Part shown: positions 38,957-47,133 of the stretch, one piece after another
Layout: each line of letters starts with the position of its first letter
Numbering within the stretch: position 1 is the first letter of the stretch
Program-made: the position numbers and the translations under genes
The notes under the pieces: generated by a model
What the model was told of the DNA's origin: nothing
The model's database searches: none
The model's input: only the letters and a program-made list of their open reading frames with translations
Assembly (NCBI GenBank): GCA_026988315.1
Contig: JALSLJ010000024.1
Span: 1-64,000, forward strand
Direction of reading: 5' to 3'
DNA: 64,000 nt
From: Sulfurimonas sp.
GTDB lineage: Bacteria > Campylobacterota > Campylobacteria > Campylobacterales > Sulfurimonadaceae

Positions 38957-39268
38957 ATGTATGTAAGTGGATCAGGCTCAATGGAGCAAATGCAAATGAG
39001 AAGAATGGATGGTACTGGTGGCGGTCAAGGCGCTGGTAAAGGTGGCATGAAAGATATTATGCAAAGTTTATCGGCTGAGGATCAAACTGCAATGAAAGAG
39101 CAATTAAGCTCAATGAGTTCAGAAGATAGAGCAGCAGCGGTAGCTGAGATGAAAGCTGTTGATAAAACGACTATGACGAGTGAAGATTACACACAATCAC
39201 TTCTTGATATCTTAGATACAACAACTGCAAATGAAGCAGAAACTGAAGGTTTTTCAGTATATGCATAA
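38957..39268 (+). CDS. hypothetical Gly/Met-rich small protein
   Basis: AAGGAG-type ribosome-binding sequence before ATG at 38957; 103-aa ORF upstream of a two-component system. Confidence 0.65.
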   Translation: MYVSGSGSMEQMQMRRMDGTGGGQGAGKGGMKDIMQSLSAEDQTAMKEQLSSMSSEDRAAAVAEMKAVDKTTMTSEDYTQSLLDILDTTTANEAETEGFSVYA

Positions 39269-39292: not shown

Positions 39293-39949
39293 ATGAAAAT
39301 TTTATACCTAGAAGATGATATAACTTTGAGTGAAACTGTTGAAGAATTTTTAAGCGATGAAGGTTTTGATGTCACCTCTGTATATGATGGAGATGAAGCA
39401 CTAGAAGCTATTTACGAGCAAAATTTTGATATCTTTATCTTGGATGTTAATGTTCCTGGCATTAATGGATTTGAGCTCCTTAAAAATTTAAGAGAGACCA
39501 ACATCCAGACCCCTGCAATTTTTACAACATCCCTGAGTAGTATTGATGACTTATCCCAAGGATTTAATGTTGGTGCTGATGATTATGTTAAAAAACCTTT
39601 TTTACTTAAAGAGTTGCTTTTTCGTACCAAAGCACTTTTAAAAAGAGAATTTAAATCTCAAGATTCTTTAGTGAGTATTAGCGAAAATATAGTTTTTAAC
39701 ACTCAAGCTAATGAGCTTCTCATAGATAAGAAAAGAGTTCCTCTGCATCCAAAAGAGTTGCTGTTGTTAAAACTACTACTTAAGCACAAAAATGAGTGTG
39801 TAACATTTGAAAATATTTATCAAACTGTTTGGACTTTTAATGAAAGCCATAGTGATATGAGTCTAAGAACTTATATAAAAAATCTTCGTAAACATTTAAC
39901 AAAAGAGAAAATACTCAGCATTAAAAAGGTTGGATATAAGCTTGTATAA
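39293..39949 (+). CDS. OmpR-family response regulator
   Basis: ILYLEDDITL, FILDVNVPGINGFELL, DDYVKKPF; winged-helix C-terminus. Confidence 0.93.
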   Translation: MKILYLEDDITLSETVEEFLSDEGFDVTSVYDGDEALEAIYEQNFDIFILDVNVPGINGFELLKNLRETNIQTPAIFTTSLSSIDDLSQGFNVGADDYVKKPFLLKELLFRTKALLKREFKSQDSLVSISENIVFNTQANELLIDKKRVPLHPKELLLLKLLLKHKNECVTFENIYQTVWTFNESHSDMSLRTYIKNLRKHLTKEKILSIKKVGYKLV

Positions 39950-41090
39950 AAGTGAAAAACGCACTATCTTTAATGTTTTAGCTCTATACTTGAGTTCAAA
40001 CCTACTTCTGATTGCTACTATTTTTACTAGTTATTATTTTTACCAGCATGAACAACGCATAGATAGTGAAAAAGAGGTCTTAAAAAAATACTCTGTCGAA
40101 CTAGAAGATAAACTCTCAAATATCCATCAAAATAGCAATGAAAGATATGAATATCCAAGATTAAAAAACTTTAAAAGTGCCATATATGATGTTGATAAAA
40201 ACCTTATATTTTCAACACTTGATGTAAAAATAGATAACCTTGATGAAGACTTCTTTATAAAAGAAAATAACTCTTACTCTGTCTCTGCTTTAAAACCCTA
40301 CTATCTTGGTGCAGCTTTTATTGTTACACAAAAGAAGACGCAAGCACTCAATATTTCAAATGATTTTGTAGCCATTGCATTTGTTATAGTATTAATCACT
40401 ATTTTTACATCTTTTTTCTTAGTTAAACTTGTCTTAAAACCTTTACGTGAAAATTTACATCTCCTAGATAATTTTATTAAAGACACAACGCACGAGTTAA
40501 ATACCCCTATAACAACCATCTTAGCAAATATTGAAACATTAGATACAGAGCATTATGATGAGAAATCTTTGAAAAAATTCCAACGTATAAAAATTGCTTC
40601 ACTCAATATCTCTAATCTTTATCAAGACTTGGTATATCTTCTTCTCAATCATAAAATCTCCTCTAAGAATGAAGAGTTAAATATAAGCTATATTTTAAAT
40701 GAGAGAGTGCAGTACTTTACACTGATGGCAAATGCAAAAAAACTAACATTCAACTTGGACATAGAAGAAGATGTGATTTTTTATGCTGACAAACAAAAGT
40801 TTGAAAGAGTTGTCGATAATATTTTTTCTAATGCGATTAAATACAGCAAAAAAGCAACTACCATAAAAGTTATTTTAAAAGACTCTACTCTCTGCGTAAT
40901 GGATGAAGGTAAAGGGATGAGTCAAGAGGAGATAGAAAACATATATGAAAAATATCGTAGATTTGACAATGTACAGGGTGGTTTTGGTATAGGCTACAGC
41001 ATCATAAAATCAATTACGGATGAGTACAATATAGATGTAAATATTGAATCTGAAGTTAATGTTGGAACAAAGGTAACACTCAAATGGTAA
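39930..41090 (+). CDS. sensor histidine kinase (start uncertain, TTG-type)
   Basis: H-box DTTHELNTPITTI, N-box DNIFSNAIKYSKK, GGFGIGYSIIKSI; overlaps the response regulator gene. Confidence 0.9.
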   Translation: MDISLYKSEKRTIFNVLALYLSSNLLLIATIFTSYYFYQHEQRIDSEKEVLKKYSVELEDKLSNIHQNSNERYEYPRLKNFKSAIYDVDKNLIFSTLDVKIDNLDEDFFIKENNSYSVSALKPYYLGAAFIVTQKKTQALNISNDFVAIAFVIVLITIFTSFFLVKLVLKPLRENLHLLDNFIKDTTHELNTPITTILANIETLDTEHYDEKSLKKFQRIKIASLNISNLYQDLVYLLLNHKISSKNEELNISYILNERVQYFTLMANAKKLTFNLDIEEDVIFYADKQKFERVVDNIFSNAIKYSKKATTIKVILKDSTLCVMDEGKGMSQEEIENIYEKYRRFDNVQGGFGIGYSIIKSITDEYNIDVNIESEVNVGTKVTLKW

Positions 41091-41409
41091 AACTAATATC
41101 TATACTTCTACTTTTAACACTCTCTTTAAACGCCACTTCTTTTAAGCAAAACTGCTTAAAGTGTCATAGCAATGAGTTTCAACTCGCTATGTTTATGAAA
41201 AAATATATTCTAAAACATAGTAGTGAAAAAAGAGTAAAAAAAGCACTTTATAGTTATCTAAAAAATCCCACTTACAAGGAATCCGTTCTCCCTTACGGGT
41301 TTTTAAATAGGTTTGGGATAAAGGAAAAAAGTTCCCTTAATGATGATGAGTTACAAAAGATGATAGATGTTTACTATGATAGATACAATATCAAATCAAA
41401 AATATACTA
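40911..41409 (+). repeat. 499-bp direct repeat, copy 1
   Basis: Aligned by eye against 42190-42688 (offset 1279) with no mismatch noticed; diverges outside these limits. Confidence 0.93.
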
Positions 41410-41410
41410 G
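41084..41410 (+). CDS. small secreted c-type-cytochrome-like protein, copy 1
   Basis: Signal peptide plus CLKCH heme-binding motif; overlaps the histidine kinase stop. Confidence 0.75.
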   Translation: MVKLISILLLLTLSLNATSFKQNCLKCHSNEFQLAMFMKKYILKHSSEKRVKKALYSYLKNPTYKESVLPYGFLNRFGIKEKSSLNDDELQKMIDVYYDRYNIKSKIY

Positions 41411-41481
41411 GTTGTAGTAGAGTTTTAATCAAGTCTCCACTATCAAAAGCTCTCAACATAGCAATATTATATGAGGTTTTG

Positions 41482-41775
41482 TTATATATTTTCTTTAGCT
41501 GGCTTATTTTGGTTAAAGATTCTTAATATTTCGATTGTACTTTTTTGAAAGCTAACTTTATAAATTATCGTATAACCTTTATAGGTCATATCTCTTACAT
41601 TTTCATTTTTAAAATAAATTGATGGCTTGTATTTGAGAGGATTATCTGGTATTAAAAATATTAGTTTTTCAAGTTCATTCGCAAAATTTATACTCGCATT
41701 AATCTTGTCTTGAGCTATATAAGTTACAATATGTAACAATTGCTTTTCAAAAGTTTTTTTGTAGATTACCTGCAT
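41482..41775 (-). CDS. RelE/ParE-family toxin
   Basis: VIYKKTFEKQLLHIVTYIAQDKINASINFANELEKLI...GYTIIYKV pattern. Confidence 0.82.
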   Translation of the reverse strand: MQVIYKKTFEKQLLHIVTYIAQDKINASINFANELEKLIFLIPDNPLKYKPSIYFKNENVRDMTYKGYTIIYKVSFQKSTIEILRIFNQNKPAKENI

Positions 41776-42018
41776 TTAATTTATAGACTTTAAATGCTTG
41801 TTTATATTACTCCATAAATCATCATGTGAAATCATTTCAGCTTTTCCACTTTCCACTTCTTCTAAGTCTTGATGCAATTGATTTTGTCTTTCATAAAAAT
41901 ATGGATCTATCTCAAGATTTTTGTCTTGAGTTATTTCTATTGCTTCTTTTCTTTTAGAAACAAAATTTAAAAATTCTTGAAAAACACTATCTTGAATATT
42001 AATAGTTAAAGTATGCAT
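41776..42018 (-). CDS. cognate antitoxin
   Basis: Abuts the toxin ORF; LTINIQDSVFQEFLNFVSKR N-terminus and acidic C-terminus. Confidence 0.75.
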   Translation of the reverse strand: MHTLTINIQDSVFQEFLNFVSKRKEAIEITQDKNLEIDPYFYERQNQLHQDLEEVESGKAEMISHDDLWSNINKHLKSIN

Positions 42019-42047
42019 TATGTTTCCTTGATACTATGTTTCCATGA
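42019..42047 (-). promoter_or_regulatory. tandem near-identical 13-mers upstream of antitoxin (TATGTTTCCTTGA / TATGTTTCCATGA)
   Basis: 12/13 identity at 42019-42031 and 42035-42047, next to the antitoxin start. Confidence 0.4.
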
Positions 42048-42156
42048 TTATAGCAAAAATTGATTTTCTTAATGATTATGGATTATATTTTTCAATAATT
42101 TTAATATTTCTTCACTTACTTATGTTAACTCTATATATACTTTTTTTGCCTCGTTA

Positions 42157-42369
42157 ATGAGGTATTGGTATCACCAGACCCTTATGTTCAAAGGGATGAG
42201 TCAAGAGGAGATAGAAAACATATATGAAAAATATCGTAGATTTGACAATGTACAGGGTGGTTTTGGTATAGGCTACAGCATCATAAAATCAATTACGGAT
42301 GAGTACAATATAGATGTAAATATTGAATCTGAAGTTAATGTTGGAACAAAGGTAACACTCAAATGGTAA
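42157..42369 (+). pseudogene. truncated histidine kinase C-terminal (HATPase) fragment
   Basis: C-terminal 58 residues (KGMSQEEIENIYEKYRRF...VTLKW) identical to the kinase ending at 41090, with an unrelated short N-terminus. Confidence 0.9.
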
Positions 42370-42688
42370 AACTAATATCTATACTTCTACTTTTAACACT
42401 CTCTTTAAACGCCACTTCTTTTAAGCAAAACTGCTTAAAGTGTCATAGCAATGAGTTTCAACTCGCTATGTTTATGAAAAAATATATTCTAAAACATAGT
42501 AGTGAAAAAAGAGTAAAAAAAGCACTTTATAGTTATCTAAAAAATCCCACTTACAAGGAATCCGTTCTCCCTTACGGGTTTTTAAATAGGTTTGGGATAA
42601 AGGAAAAAAGTTCCCTTAATGATGATGAGTTACAAAAGATGATAGATGTTTACTATGATAGATACAATATCAAATCAAAAATATACTA
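42190..42688 (+). repeat. 499-bp direct repeat, copy 2
   Basis: Second copy of 40911-41409. Confidence 0.93.
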
Positions 42689-42689
42689 A
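42363..42689 (+). CDS. small secreted c-type-cytochrome-like protein, copy 2
   Basis: Protein identical to 41084-41410. Confidence 0.75.
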   Translation: MVKLISILLLLTLSLNATSFKQNCLKCHSNEFQLAMFMKKYILKHSSEKRVKKALYSYLKNPTYKESVLPYGFLNRFGIKEKSSLNDDELQKMIDVYYDRYNIKSKIY

Positions 42690-42715
42690 AAGAGCGCTAT
42701 TTTATATGCTCTTTT
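42688..42715. terminator. candidate bidirectional terminator
   Basis: AAAAGAGC / GCTCTTTT stem between convergent genes; absent after repeat copy 1. Confidence 0.5.
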
Positions 42716-44202
42716 TTCGCTACTAAGGCTTTTACCAAGGCACTTTTAATTGACTGATACGCTTTTTCACTTTGTTCTAAAACTTTTGATTCTCTAGTAA
42801 ACTGTCTATCCAATATATTTAAATCTCTATCTAAACTGCTAAACTTATTGAGTATATCGGGCTTAATTTTTTGACGAATCAGTTTAGTTTTTTCCTTTTC
42901 AAATGACGATAATTCTTCTGTAATCTGATGTATCTCATTCCTTAGCAACTCTTTTTTAGCATCATTTTTTGATGCGCTTAGAGAGTCAGTTTTAATATCA
43001 TACTTGTGCTTTAATTTGTTAATACTAATTTCAACCGTTTGTATATCTCTAAGAGTTTTTGCATTATGTTCTAAAGGTGTATTCTCACCAATGTAGAGAG
43101 TTGAAATCTGGTTTTCTAGATTATAATAATCTTTTTTTATCACATCTATAGATAATTTTGTTTTTACATACGCCTTTGAAACAGACAAAATCGACACAGA
43201 GTTCCAGTGTTGGCCACTATCTGATTGCAATGATGGTATTTTATATTTTACACCATCTACGATAATAATATCCAAAGAATAGTATTTTAAAAAATCTATC
43301 ATATAGCCATTTAAGTGTGAAATCTCCTCTAATATCAAATCTGCTATATGCTCAAAGACCTCTTTAAAATATATTCTAAATATATAGCCAGAAAAACCGA
43401 TAAAAAAATCATTATTTTGATTAAACTCTTCACTTAACTGCTCTATGATTATTGATTGGATGTATGAAAATACTTTAAGCTCATAATTATCATTAGTAAT
43501 TTTTTTTTCTTTAAAGTATATATCTACAAATCGCTTTGCAGTAAAATAAAAAAAGTCTTTATTTTCTTGCAGGGAAAAGTAATCATTTTGAAAAGTGATT
43601 AACTCCTCTTCATCGATACCGTTATATCTATTTGCAATTGTATTTTTTTGGGTTTCTGGAACACTCTTTTTATATGTAAATATCTTTATAAAAATTTTAT
43701 TTTTTTTGCTGATTATAATATCACTATGCTTAAGTTTCAAGGCTTCTCTAATAGCATATTTTATTAATTCTTTTTTATTTATCTCTTCATTTTCTATCGC
43801 GTACGCAAACTCATTAATTTTCTCTACCAATTCCTCTTTTATGAGGATTTGATCTTCTTTACCCTTATAGTTATACTCAATTAAATCTTCATTCTCATTC
43901 AAAATGTCAACAATACTCCCTAAATTTACACTCTCTTTTGGCTCAATGGTATAGGGAAATACTTTGAGCCTAATCTGCTTATTTGTCATTTTAAAAAGTA
44001 TATATCCTACACTCTCAAAGTACTCTTTAAAAGCTCTTTTTATCTCTAGTATATTTTCATATTTGTCTATACTTTCATCAGGGAAAAATTCGTTTATATG
44101 CTCGAACAGCTTTTTATTATCTTCATCACTCCATCTAAAATTGATTGATGGTTTTTGCAAATTCGCTTTTAAATAATAAATCAACTCTGAATACGCCATC
44201 AA
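42697..44202 (-). CDS. hypothetical protein with C-terminal coiled coil
   Basis: 501-aa ORF; C-terminal ~150 aa heptad-rich; no family recognised. Confidence 0.7.
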   Translation of the reverse strand: MMAYSELIYYLKANLQKPSINFRWSDEDNKKLFEHINEFFPDESIDKYENILEIKRAFKEYFESVGYILFKMTNKQIRLKVFPYTIEPKESVNLGSIVDILNENEDLIEYNYKGKEDQILIKEELVEKINEFAYAIENEEINKKELIKYAIREALKLKHSDIIISKKNKIFIKIFTYKKSVPETQKNTIANRYNGIDEEELITFQNDYFSLQENKDFFYFTAKRFVDIYFKEKKITNDNYELKVFSYIQSIIIEQLSEEFNQNNDFFIGFSGYIFRIYFKEVFEHIADLILEEISHLNGYMIDFLKYYSLDIIIVDGVKYKIPSLQSDSGQHWNSVSILSVSKAYVKTKLSIDVIKKDYYNLENQISTLYIGENTPLEHNAKTLRDIQTVEISINKLKHKYDIKTDSLSASKNDAKKELLRNEIHQITEELSSFEKEKTKLIRQKIKPDILNKFSSLDRDLNILDRQFTRESKVLEQSEKAYQSIKSALVKALVAKKEHIK

Positions 44203-44315: not shown

Positions 44316-45644
44316 TTATACTTTCGTATGTAACCACTCTTTCTTTTGATAAATATAGTAATATATCAAACCTTTTAGGAGTGTTTCTACATTCATTATC
44401 ACAAAAATTGCAATAATGCCAAAGCCAAATTTATACGCTATATATGATGGGACAACCCTTAAAAACCAAAGCGATAAAACATTTATTTTCAATGTTATTT
44501 TAGTTGCTCCTGCCCCGCGAAGTGCCGCTGAATATACAAAAACTATAGCAAGAGGAATTTGTGCTAAACCAACAAGTATTAAATAGTACGAAGCTACGGC
44601 GATTGTTGCTTCATCTTTTGTAAACAAAGCAACTAAAGATTCAGGAAAAAGTATCAAAATCAAACCAATACTTCCCATAAATATGTAGGCGATTCTACCA
44701 CTTATAATTCCCATATTATAGGCTTTATCTATATGCTGTGCCCCTAAATTTTGCCCAACCAAAGCCATAGCAGCTATAGCAAAACCAAATCCTGGCATAA
44801 AAGCAATTCCTTCTATTCTAAGACCAACCTGATATCCCGCTAACTCTACTGTTCCATATGCAGTAATTATAGATACAAAAACTAAAAAAGATAAACTTGA
44901 TACTCCACGGTCAAGTGCCGCACTCCATCCAACATGCCACACTCGCTTCATATCACTGAGTCTAATTATTGGGATAAGATTGAGCTTAGCTTTAGGAATT
45001 TTTAAAAGAAAAAAATACGCTAGTACATTAAAACTATAAGCTATAATAGTTGCATACGCTGCACCTTCTATCCCCATTGCATCAAACCCATAGTGACCAA
45101 ATATAAACACATAGTTTAAAAAAGCATTTAGGGCAGCTGAAAAGAGCTTTATATATAAAGAACTTTGTGTATCTCCAGCAGCAGAGAGTGCATTATAAAG
45201 CAATGTATCTATAAATATTACAGCAATTCCAAGAGAAATTATCTGAAAATATAAAGAGCCTTGATGAACAACCTCTGGTTGTGCACCCATAACACTATAG
45301 ATAAATTCACTCCCAACATAGCCACCAATACTTACAAAAATGGATAAAATTATTGCAAATATACCAAGAGTAAAAAGCAATGCAGACGCCCGTTTCTTTC
45401 TTCTTTGTCCAATTAACCTAGAGATTAGAGCATTGCCACCAACTACATAAAGGGTCATAAGAACATTTATTATCATCATAAACTGCATACTCATACCAAC
45501 AGCAGCTAGGGCGTATATACTTATCATGCCAACCATAATCATATCGATTAAAATTTGTAATATATCTACTAAGTGTTTTAATGCAGCAGGAATAGCAAGT
45601 TTAAAAACTTTTTTAGTATCTGTAGAGATTAGTTTTGAAATAAT
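44316..45644 (-). CDS. MATE-family efflux transporter, apparent non-canonical (ATT) start
   Basis: Track ORF begins at 45542 inside TM1; in-frame upstream codons encode IISKLISTDTKKVFKLAIPAALKHLVDILQILID; AAGGTGG precedes ATT. Confidence 0.75.
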   Translation of the reverse strand: MISKLISTDTKKVFKLAIPAALKHLVDILQILIDMIMVGMISIYALAAVGMSMQFMMIINVLMTLYVVGGNALISRLIGQRRKKRASALLFTLGIFAIILSIFVSIGGYVGSEFIYSVMGAQPEVVHQGSLYFQIISLGIAVIFIDTLLYNALSAAGDTQSSLYIKLFSAALNAFLNYVFIFGHYGFDAMGIEGAAYATIIAYSFNVLAYFFLLKIPKAKLNLIPIIRLSDMKRVWHVGWSAALDRGVSSLSFLVFVSIITAYGTVELAGYQVGLRIEGIAFMPGFGFAIAAMALVGQNLGAQHIDKAYNMGIISGRIAYIFMGSIGLILILFPESLVALFTKDEATIAVASYYLILVGLAQIPLAIVFVYSAALRGAGATKITLKINVLSLWFLRVVPSYIAYKFGFGIIAIFVIMNVETLLKGLIYYYIYQKKEWLHTKV

Positions 45645-45901
45645 TGTGCCACCTTTGTCATAGTAAGGATAAGCTCCTCTTTAGTTTCAAAATCAAGTAC
45701 AATTTTATCTTTTACCTCCTCTTTTTGGGGAGTAAAATCAAAAACTAAGATATATCCCTTTAAGTGAACTTTACCCTTATTTATCTCCATCCACTCCAAA
45801 CTCATCTCAGCAACTTCCCCTTGCATTGCAACTACAGCAGCAGGATACAGTCTTGTTAATTTACTTAAATCTATATCTCCAATTTTAGATTTATATATCA
45901 T
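45629..45901 (-). CDS. conserved-looking hypothetical protein
   Basis: 90-aa ORF between and overlapping two transporter genes. Confidence 0.6.
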   Translation of the reverse strand: MIYKSKIGDIDLSKLTRLYPAAVVAMQGEVAEMSLEWMEINKGKVHLKGYILVFDFTPQKEEVKDKIVLDFETKEELILTMTKVAQLFQN

Positions 45902-47133
45902 TTTATCTCCTTAATTTTTTGAGTTTTTAGTATCCAGATAAAATAAATACCGCCAACTAAAAATCCAGCTCCTATCACAACAGTAATAAATTCTAAAGAG
46001 TAGCCATCTGTTGCTAAAAAACCAATCATAAAAGAGGTAAAAGCAGCTGAACTTAAAAACAGCATATCATTATATGCTACGATTCTTCCATAATATTTTT
46101 GCTCTATATTTTTTTGCAACAAGGTATAAGTGTAGGACCAAAGAGTTGTTGTAAAGAAACCAACAACTACACTCGCAAAAAGTGAAAGATAAAAATCTTT
46201 CATCACATAAGCCCATAAGTAAATAGAAAAAGCTTGCCCAATAAAAATATAAACTATCCGTTTATTATTTACCCAATTACTAATTACAATCGGTCCAATC
46301 ACTAAACCAATGGCACGGGAGGCATGAAGAAGTCCTAGAGCTAACGAAGTAGCAATTACAGATGCATAATACTTATCTACCATTAGTGCAACCAAGGCAT
46401 CAAAAGCAGTTAAACCAACAAAGGCGTGAATCAACATAAGGTGAACAGCTTGTGGCGTTTTTTTCAAATACCTAAAAGTATCACCCATCATCTGGAGTAG
46501 ATTCTCACCTGTTTTAATCATTTCAACCTTTATCTCTAAATTATAAAGTAAAACAAAACCAACAACAAACATACAAGCATCTAAAACAAATGCGACTTTA
46601 ACTCCAAGCAGATATACAACAAAACCACCCAAAGCCATACCAAGGGTATATGAAAACGACCAAATAATAGAATGGATTTCATTAGCCTTTTGTAGTTTAA
46701 CTCCATCTAAAATTTTGGGTAACAATGACATCTCAGTTGTAAAGTAAAACGAAGCAGCTGCCATTTTTAGAAAAATTAAAGTATATAAAAGCCATAAATC
46801 CGATAAATTATTTACAAAAACTAGAAAGAAAGTTGCAAATATTTCTATGCATATAAGAACCAACATTAAGTTCTTTGGTTTTACACTATCTATAATAGAA
46901 CCAGAAAAAGGTGCTTGAATAACACCTGCTAAGAAATGTAACATTGCGACAAATGCTACTATTTCAGCACTCACTTTCATATCCAAGAGTAGCGTGTATA
47001 TTGCTACATTACTAAACCATGCACCAAAGTATGCAATAAGTTGTATGGTGGATAGTCTTCGTAAAACTGGCTCAGCTTTTAGTAAAATTAAATAATCATT
47101 CATAAATGCAAGGTTATCATAATAAGGAATCAT
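45898..47133 (-). CDS. MFS transporter
   Basis: 12-TM-like pattern; STIQLIAYFGAWFSNVAIYTLLLDM resembles enterobactin-exporter-like MFS proteins. Confidence 0.85.
   Translation of the reverse strand: MIPYYDNLAFMNDYLILLKAEPVLRRLSTIQLIAYFGAWFSNVAIYTLLLDMKVSAEIVAFVAMLHFLAGVIQAPFSGSIIDSVKPKNLMLVLICIEIFATFFLVFVNNLSDLWLLYTLIFLKMAAASFYFTTEMSLLPKILDGVKLQKANEIHSIIWSFSYTLGMALGGFVVYLLGVKVAFVLDACMFVVGFVLLYNLEIKVEMIKTGENLLQMMGDTFRYLKKTPQAVHLMLIHAFVGLTAFDALVALMVDKYYASVIATSLALGLLHASRAIGLVIGPIVISNWVNNKRIVYIFIGQAFSIYLWAYVMKDFYLSLFASVVVGFFTTTLWSYTYTLLQKNIEQKYYGRIVAYNDMLFLSSAAFTSFMIGFLATDGYSLEFITVVIGAGFLVGGIYFIWILKTQKIKEIK

Follow-up and report, generated by a model that had tools for sequence, protein, structure and literature searches.

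A 780-bp toxin-antitoxin module in Sulfurimonas sp. lies between two perfect 499-bp copies of the end of a signaling operon. Having analyzed the whole 64,000-nucleotide stretch around it (hereafter the window), we favor, with a probability of roughly 0.6, an insertion with long target duplication, in which an external 780-bp module entered at the stop codon of a cytochrome-like gene, with duplication of 499 bp of target DNA. Such an event would yield the order target, module, target (R-TA-R, with R for the repeated target and TA for the module), with one module and native outer flanks. The pattern is already known from restriction-modification genes of Helicobacter; the cargo differs.

Structure of the repeat and the module

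The maximal exact direct repeat occupies positions 40911-41409 and 42190-42688, 499 bp at an offset of 1279 with 0 mismatches, as the preliminary description had concluded from a by-eye alignment. It is the sole direct repeat of 24 bp or longer in the 64-kb window, which excludes a chance origin, as does the 499/499 identity itself. With 0 differences in 499 positions, divergence between the copies has a 95% upper bound of 0.6%, suggesting that the event was recent or that ongoing gene conversion maintains their identity. Just beyond the repeat, the copies first differ by T/C at the left edge and by G/A at the right edge, where the mismatch falls on the third base of the CxxCH-gene stop codon. 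Checked base by base, the repeat does end inside this codon as first described, after its second base (TA/G in copy 1 and TA/A in copy 2). GC content is 32.2% in the window, 29.9% in the repeat and 25.6% in the 780-bp spacer.

The duplicated DNA is the 3′ part of a forward-strand operon that begins, outside the repeat, with an OmpR-type response regulator (39293-39949; Response_reg and Trans_reg_C domains). The full copy of the histidine kinase gene follows (39930-41090; HisKA and HATPase_c), and then a gene for a 108-aa, cytochrome-like CxxCH protein (41084-41410), whose TAG stop codon is completed by the insert. Each repeat copy takes in the final 59 kinase codons plus the stop (40911-41090 in copy 1), one codon more than the roughly 58 first counted, and the entire CxxCH gene as originally noted. 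An intact reading frame in both copies had also been proposed, which is correct for the cytochrome-like gene but not for the kinase. In copy 2, the latter is reduced to a remnant in a 70-aa open frame made of 11 insert codons and the last 59 kinase codons (42157-42369, + strand; partial HATPase_c), followed by the second CxxCH gene with its native TAA stop (42363-42689, + strand). The entire genome has two copies of this small gene.

A hairpin with a T-run, likely the native operon terminator, is present after copy 2 only (42688-42719, + strand; AAAGAGC...GCTCTTTTTT), in agreement with the earlier reading. We read it directly from the letters, as its loop is too long for the hairpin scan. Since the kinase and the cytochrome-like gene are both whole in copy 1, the host loses mainly the terminator position. 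Directly 3′ of the terminator is a 501-aa open frame on the reverse strand (42697-44202), which has no match in Pfam, NCBIfam or PADLOC and is absent between these genes in the relatives examined.

The insert (41410-42189) was characterized by its open reading frames, a Pfam profile search and a comparison of its ends. It contains only two genes, both on the reverse strand, no transposase or recombinase, and no inverted repeat shared between its ends. The first gene encodes a 97-aa toxin of the ParE/RelE type (41482-41775) that matches the Pfam family ParE_toxin (PF05016) with E = 3.6e-13 and 50.3 bits against a cut-off of 23, and whose 13 aligned relatives are 49-91% identical. Directly upstream of the toxin is an 80-aa putative antitoxin (41776-42018), so called from its position and from homologous pairs in relatives; it has no convincing match among curated families. 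The module is thus like type II ParE/RelE systems in having a RelE/ParE-superfamily toxin with a small adjoining partner gene, and differs in that the putative antitoxin falls outside the curated families and no sequence-level relative was found among solved structures. This supports the original call of a RelE/ParE toxin and antitoxin on the opposite strand of the 780-bp gap, for the toxin through Pfam and for the antitoxin as a putative assignment. The module occurs once in the entire genome, Rfam and tRNA scans returned nothing, and plasmid and phage records yielded toxins of just 35-37% identity.

Relatives of the operon and of the toxin

Homologues of the small CxxCH gene were found in 15 of 41 relatives. 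At the eight loci examined within the genus (L002-L009), the gene lies directly after the kinase in a single operon, and none of the eight has a toxin-antitoxin pair after it. The sequence 3′ of the gene in L003, TAA-AGAGCC, resembles the TAA-AAGAGC that follows copy 2. The next gene in L006 is the transporter found at 44316-45542 of the window, and the transporter found at 45898-47133 lies downstream in L002 and L005. Given the gene order in these relatives and the continuity of copy 1 with the full kinase gene, we read copy 1 as retaining the native left flank, copy 2 as retaining the native right flank and, on this sequence comparison, the 780-bp module as the newcomer at the locus. The closest relative is just 57% identical in the small-gene protein, so the empty site of the window is defined by gene order and not at base level. 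The idea of an insertion duplicating its target, put forward in the preliminary description, is borne out by the single, module-free operons of relatives, by the L003 flank and by related events in the genus.

Of 135 genomes of the genus, 113 encode relatives of the toxin, and we searched 120 such toxin loci with their flanks for direct repeats around the toxin. The repeats had three causes: target-gene duplication, the uvrB gene, and attC-like repeats (60-145 bp) together with IS remnants. One clear target duplication away from uvrB was found among these 120 further loci, in addition to the window, so that target duplications around these toxins are rare. In this case (genome G103, locus L105), each side of a 683-bp toxin-antitoxin insert carries the end of a 426-aa gene together with a whole Haem_bd gene, and the outer copy has an internal deletion. 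Its empty site is defined at base level, as the close relatives G014 and G023 have the gene pair with neither module nor duplicate. G103 also answers the question, raised at the outset, of whether the same toxin family is flanked by target duplicates elsewhere. Locus L106 of G133, with 168-207-bp copies of a gene 3′ end and attC-like repeats too, may be a further case and is left uncounted. Two other candidates were rejected: L126 consists of a pair of antitoxin paralogs, and the repeat at L168 is a dispersed one. Toxins lay between repeats at 6 of 61 loci against a background of 0.9%; the window itself and IS/attC-like cases are inside this count, and for this reason it was not used as a test of mechanism.

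A second kind of cargo was found in G016 (L162 3955-8737, on G016:C47), where two ribE copies (634 bp, 97.3%) enclose the genes for an NgoPII-type restriction enzyme and a C5-methylase, with a toxin-antitoxin pair ahead of the first copy. The ribE gene is single in nearly every other genome. At the new joint, the gene that follows ribE contributes its start (ATGAGCGAC, then AAAGCCGC) and the gene that precedes ribE its 3′ end (AAAGCCGCC), and the two sides have 8 bp of microhomology, AAAGCCGC, in common; start codons here were inferred from an 87-aa protein. Two alleles of one site have apparently been stacked. An end at microhomology combined with an end in a homologous gene would be the expected product of homology-facilitated illegitimate recombination, a kind of process described in PMC3240628. 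Among the 30 C5-methylase loci of the comparison set, the one with a flanking gene duplication is G016 itself. Toxins of the broad family also lie beside ribE in six places (G134:C1:66286-66996, G131:C1:18999-19726, G004:C15:76876-77601, G129:C3:1506-2229, G142:C121:7433-8160 and G088:C12:976-1689), which suggests that the spot is an old resident position for this family.

Route of entry and maintenance

Passages in three reports (PMC1643837, PMC3874152, PMC3031569) trace insertion with long target duplication to a comparison of H. pylori 26695 with J99 and note its frequent association with restriction-modification genes; the primary sources cited there are 2000, Gene 259:99 and Furuta et al. 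2010, NAR 38:2428. From the association as those passages word it, we take restriction-modification cargo to be typical, not defining. The locus resembles the H. pylori cases in having an addiction-type gene pair between direct target copies (499/499 around 780 bp) in a Campylobacterota host, with no transposase, recombinase or terminal inverted repeats. The duplication, long in both, measures 499 bp here, while one of the sources (PMC3874152) speaks of "the order of 100 bp". The H. pylori cases often carry restriction-modification genes and were identified by sister-strain comparison, whereas the cargo here is a 780-bp toxin-antitoxin pair and the relatives compared are distant; restriction-modification genes are carried at the G016 locus. 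A few literature searches returned no report of a toxin-antitoxin pair moving by insertion with long target duplication. Together, a perfect toxin-antitoxin case and separate cases in the genus suggest that the pattern is tied to the entry of addictive genes into Campylobacterota and not to restriction enzymes per se.

We propose that one end of the incoming module-bearing DNA was joined by homologous recombination within R, and that the other end would have been closed by illegitimate or template-switch joining. Uptake of foreign DNA with homology-assisted or template-switch joining is preferred, since neither a recombinase nor an attachment core or a donor circle was seen. With no donor allele found, microhomology at the joint is not legible here. 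Laboratory systems of transformation-driven merodiploidy and homology-facilitated illegitimate recombination (PMC3784515, PMC3240628) likewise combine a homology joint with an unusual joint and leave both alleles in tandem, although the duplications there are far larger than 499 bp, or there are none.

The preliminary description had the module arrive as circular or cassette-like DNA. A 1279-bp circle of module plus R that integrates through a single homologous crossover in R, and leaves in the same way, yields exactly the observed product. Indeed, circle entry, one-step insertion and homology-assisted insertion all leave the same product, so the sequence cannot separate them. In four non-identical duplications that we tested, among them those of G103, G016 and uvrB, the differences are biased to synonymous sites, as if one copy had arrived with the incoming DNA. 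However, this bias fits later allelic exchange equally as well as divergence of functional alleles before acquisition, and does not decide between them. We found no 1279-bp circle, no donor allele with R beside the module, no attachment site and no recombinase, and a circle would leave the joining of module to R to be explained. We therefore keep the insertion from the original model and consider its circular form unlikely. A broader version, in which Sulfurimonas toxin-antitoxin modules are recombinase-free mobile units that carry a target copy, with R-TA circles released by recombination between the R copies, entering R of another cell through ordinary homologous recombination, and kept through selection by addiction, would be a long shot.

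The R-TA-R order could also have been reached in stages, starting from a simple insertion after the cytochrome-like gene. R-TA would then have been duplicated in tandem and the second module lost, or a module-bearing allele would have recombined with an empty one. The G016 locus lends this some plausibility, in that toxin-antitoxin and restriction-modification alleles appear to be joined there in tandem with microhomology at the joint. Against this, an extra step is needed, as tandem duplication alone would end in R-TA-R-TA, and a simple insertion after this gene is found in no relative examined; we regard the staged route as improbable.

We put a still lower probability on an assembly artefact, with the duplication absent from the chromosome. 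The assembly is a draft of 112 contigs, and exact repeats of about 500 bp commonly cause misjoins. However, the joints at 41409/41410 and 42189/42190 are both expected in reads and, given both and assuming no chimeric reads, R-TA-R is the only linear path; otherwise, the chromosome would be empty and accompanied by a free circle. In addition, a comparable R-TA-R arrangement at uvrB is found in a single-contig genome (L124).

For the insertion with long target duplication that we favor, maintenance has to be considered along with entry. Recombination between the two R copies would delete the module, and frequent loss would be expected unless it is selected against; a working toxin-antitoxin pair could provide such selection, and the preliminary description supposed that loss would be lethal or costly with an active toxin. 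The perfect repeats render the questions of route and of maintenance by addiction directly testable.

Integrase islands, cassette-like repeats and other neighbors of these toxins

In G136, G124 and G107, a toxin-antitoxin pair of the same toxin family lies between a truncated 5′ piece of uvrB and an intact uvrB. Additional truncated copies of its first ~104 codons are found in many genomes, with a maximum of 8 matches in G043, and most often break near codon 104. Since the islands at this site carry tyrosine recombinases, an integrase attachment site is the best reading of uvrB, and its cases were no longer counted in support of the mechanism. The loci concerned are L124, L182, L175, L219-L221, L227, L228 and L231, and within the genus uvrB looks like an integration hotspot that is used repeatedly.

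By analogy with uvrB, the locus could be viewed as what is left of an integrase island that used part of the target gene as a duplicated attachment site; the same toxin family is found between target-gene copies in both settings. The uvrB islands, however, have their own tyrosine recombinase, a fixed break near codon 104 and diverged copies, and the window has none of these. With no recombinase in the 780 bp, a perfect 499-bp repeat too fresh for a remnant and no junction sequence in common with the uvrB sites, a remnant is highly improbable, and an integrase island with a gene-fragment attachment site was rejected on the lack of a recombinase. Two further candidates were rejected for the window. 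An IS or composite transposon, of which L069 is a case elsewhere, does not match a repeat that encodes a kinase end and a cytochrome-like protein and no transposase. For an integron cassette, the repeats would be attC-like and 60-145 bp long; here they are protein-coding target DNA, and a by-eye scan of the insert for a degenerate attC showed none.

Repeats of ~45-120 bp that are attC-like and spaced ~650-2100 bp apart flank related toxins at L084, L092, L099, L106, L116, L245, L264, L268 and L281, in Sulfurimonas and other Campylobacterota. Some of these repeats have GTTGTATC/GATACAAC ends, and from their sequence the loci resemble integron cassettes. In G097, G149 and G043, toxin-antitoxin pairs are accompanied by a repeat of ~130-145 bp that returns at intervals of ~750-820 bp, in a cassette-array-like arrangement tied to uvrB (L134 2956-4653; L137 161-1041, overlapping the uvrB junction; L122 4165-9163).

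Low-complexity small proteins of one apparent family (SGS..QMQM..GGGQG..KGGMKDIMQSLS) are encoded near both clear target duplications, at 38957-39268 of the window and at 11698-12012 of L105, which is probably a coincidence. Finally, a uvrB 5′ fragment in G043 has two toxin-antitoxin pairs next to it (L220 12285-13538), in tandem at a distance of 746 bp, and their starts are, as far as shown, identical.
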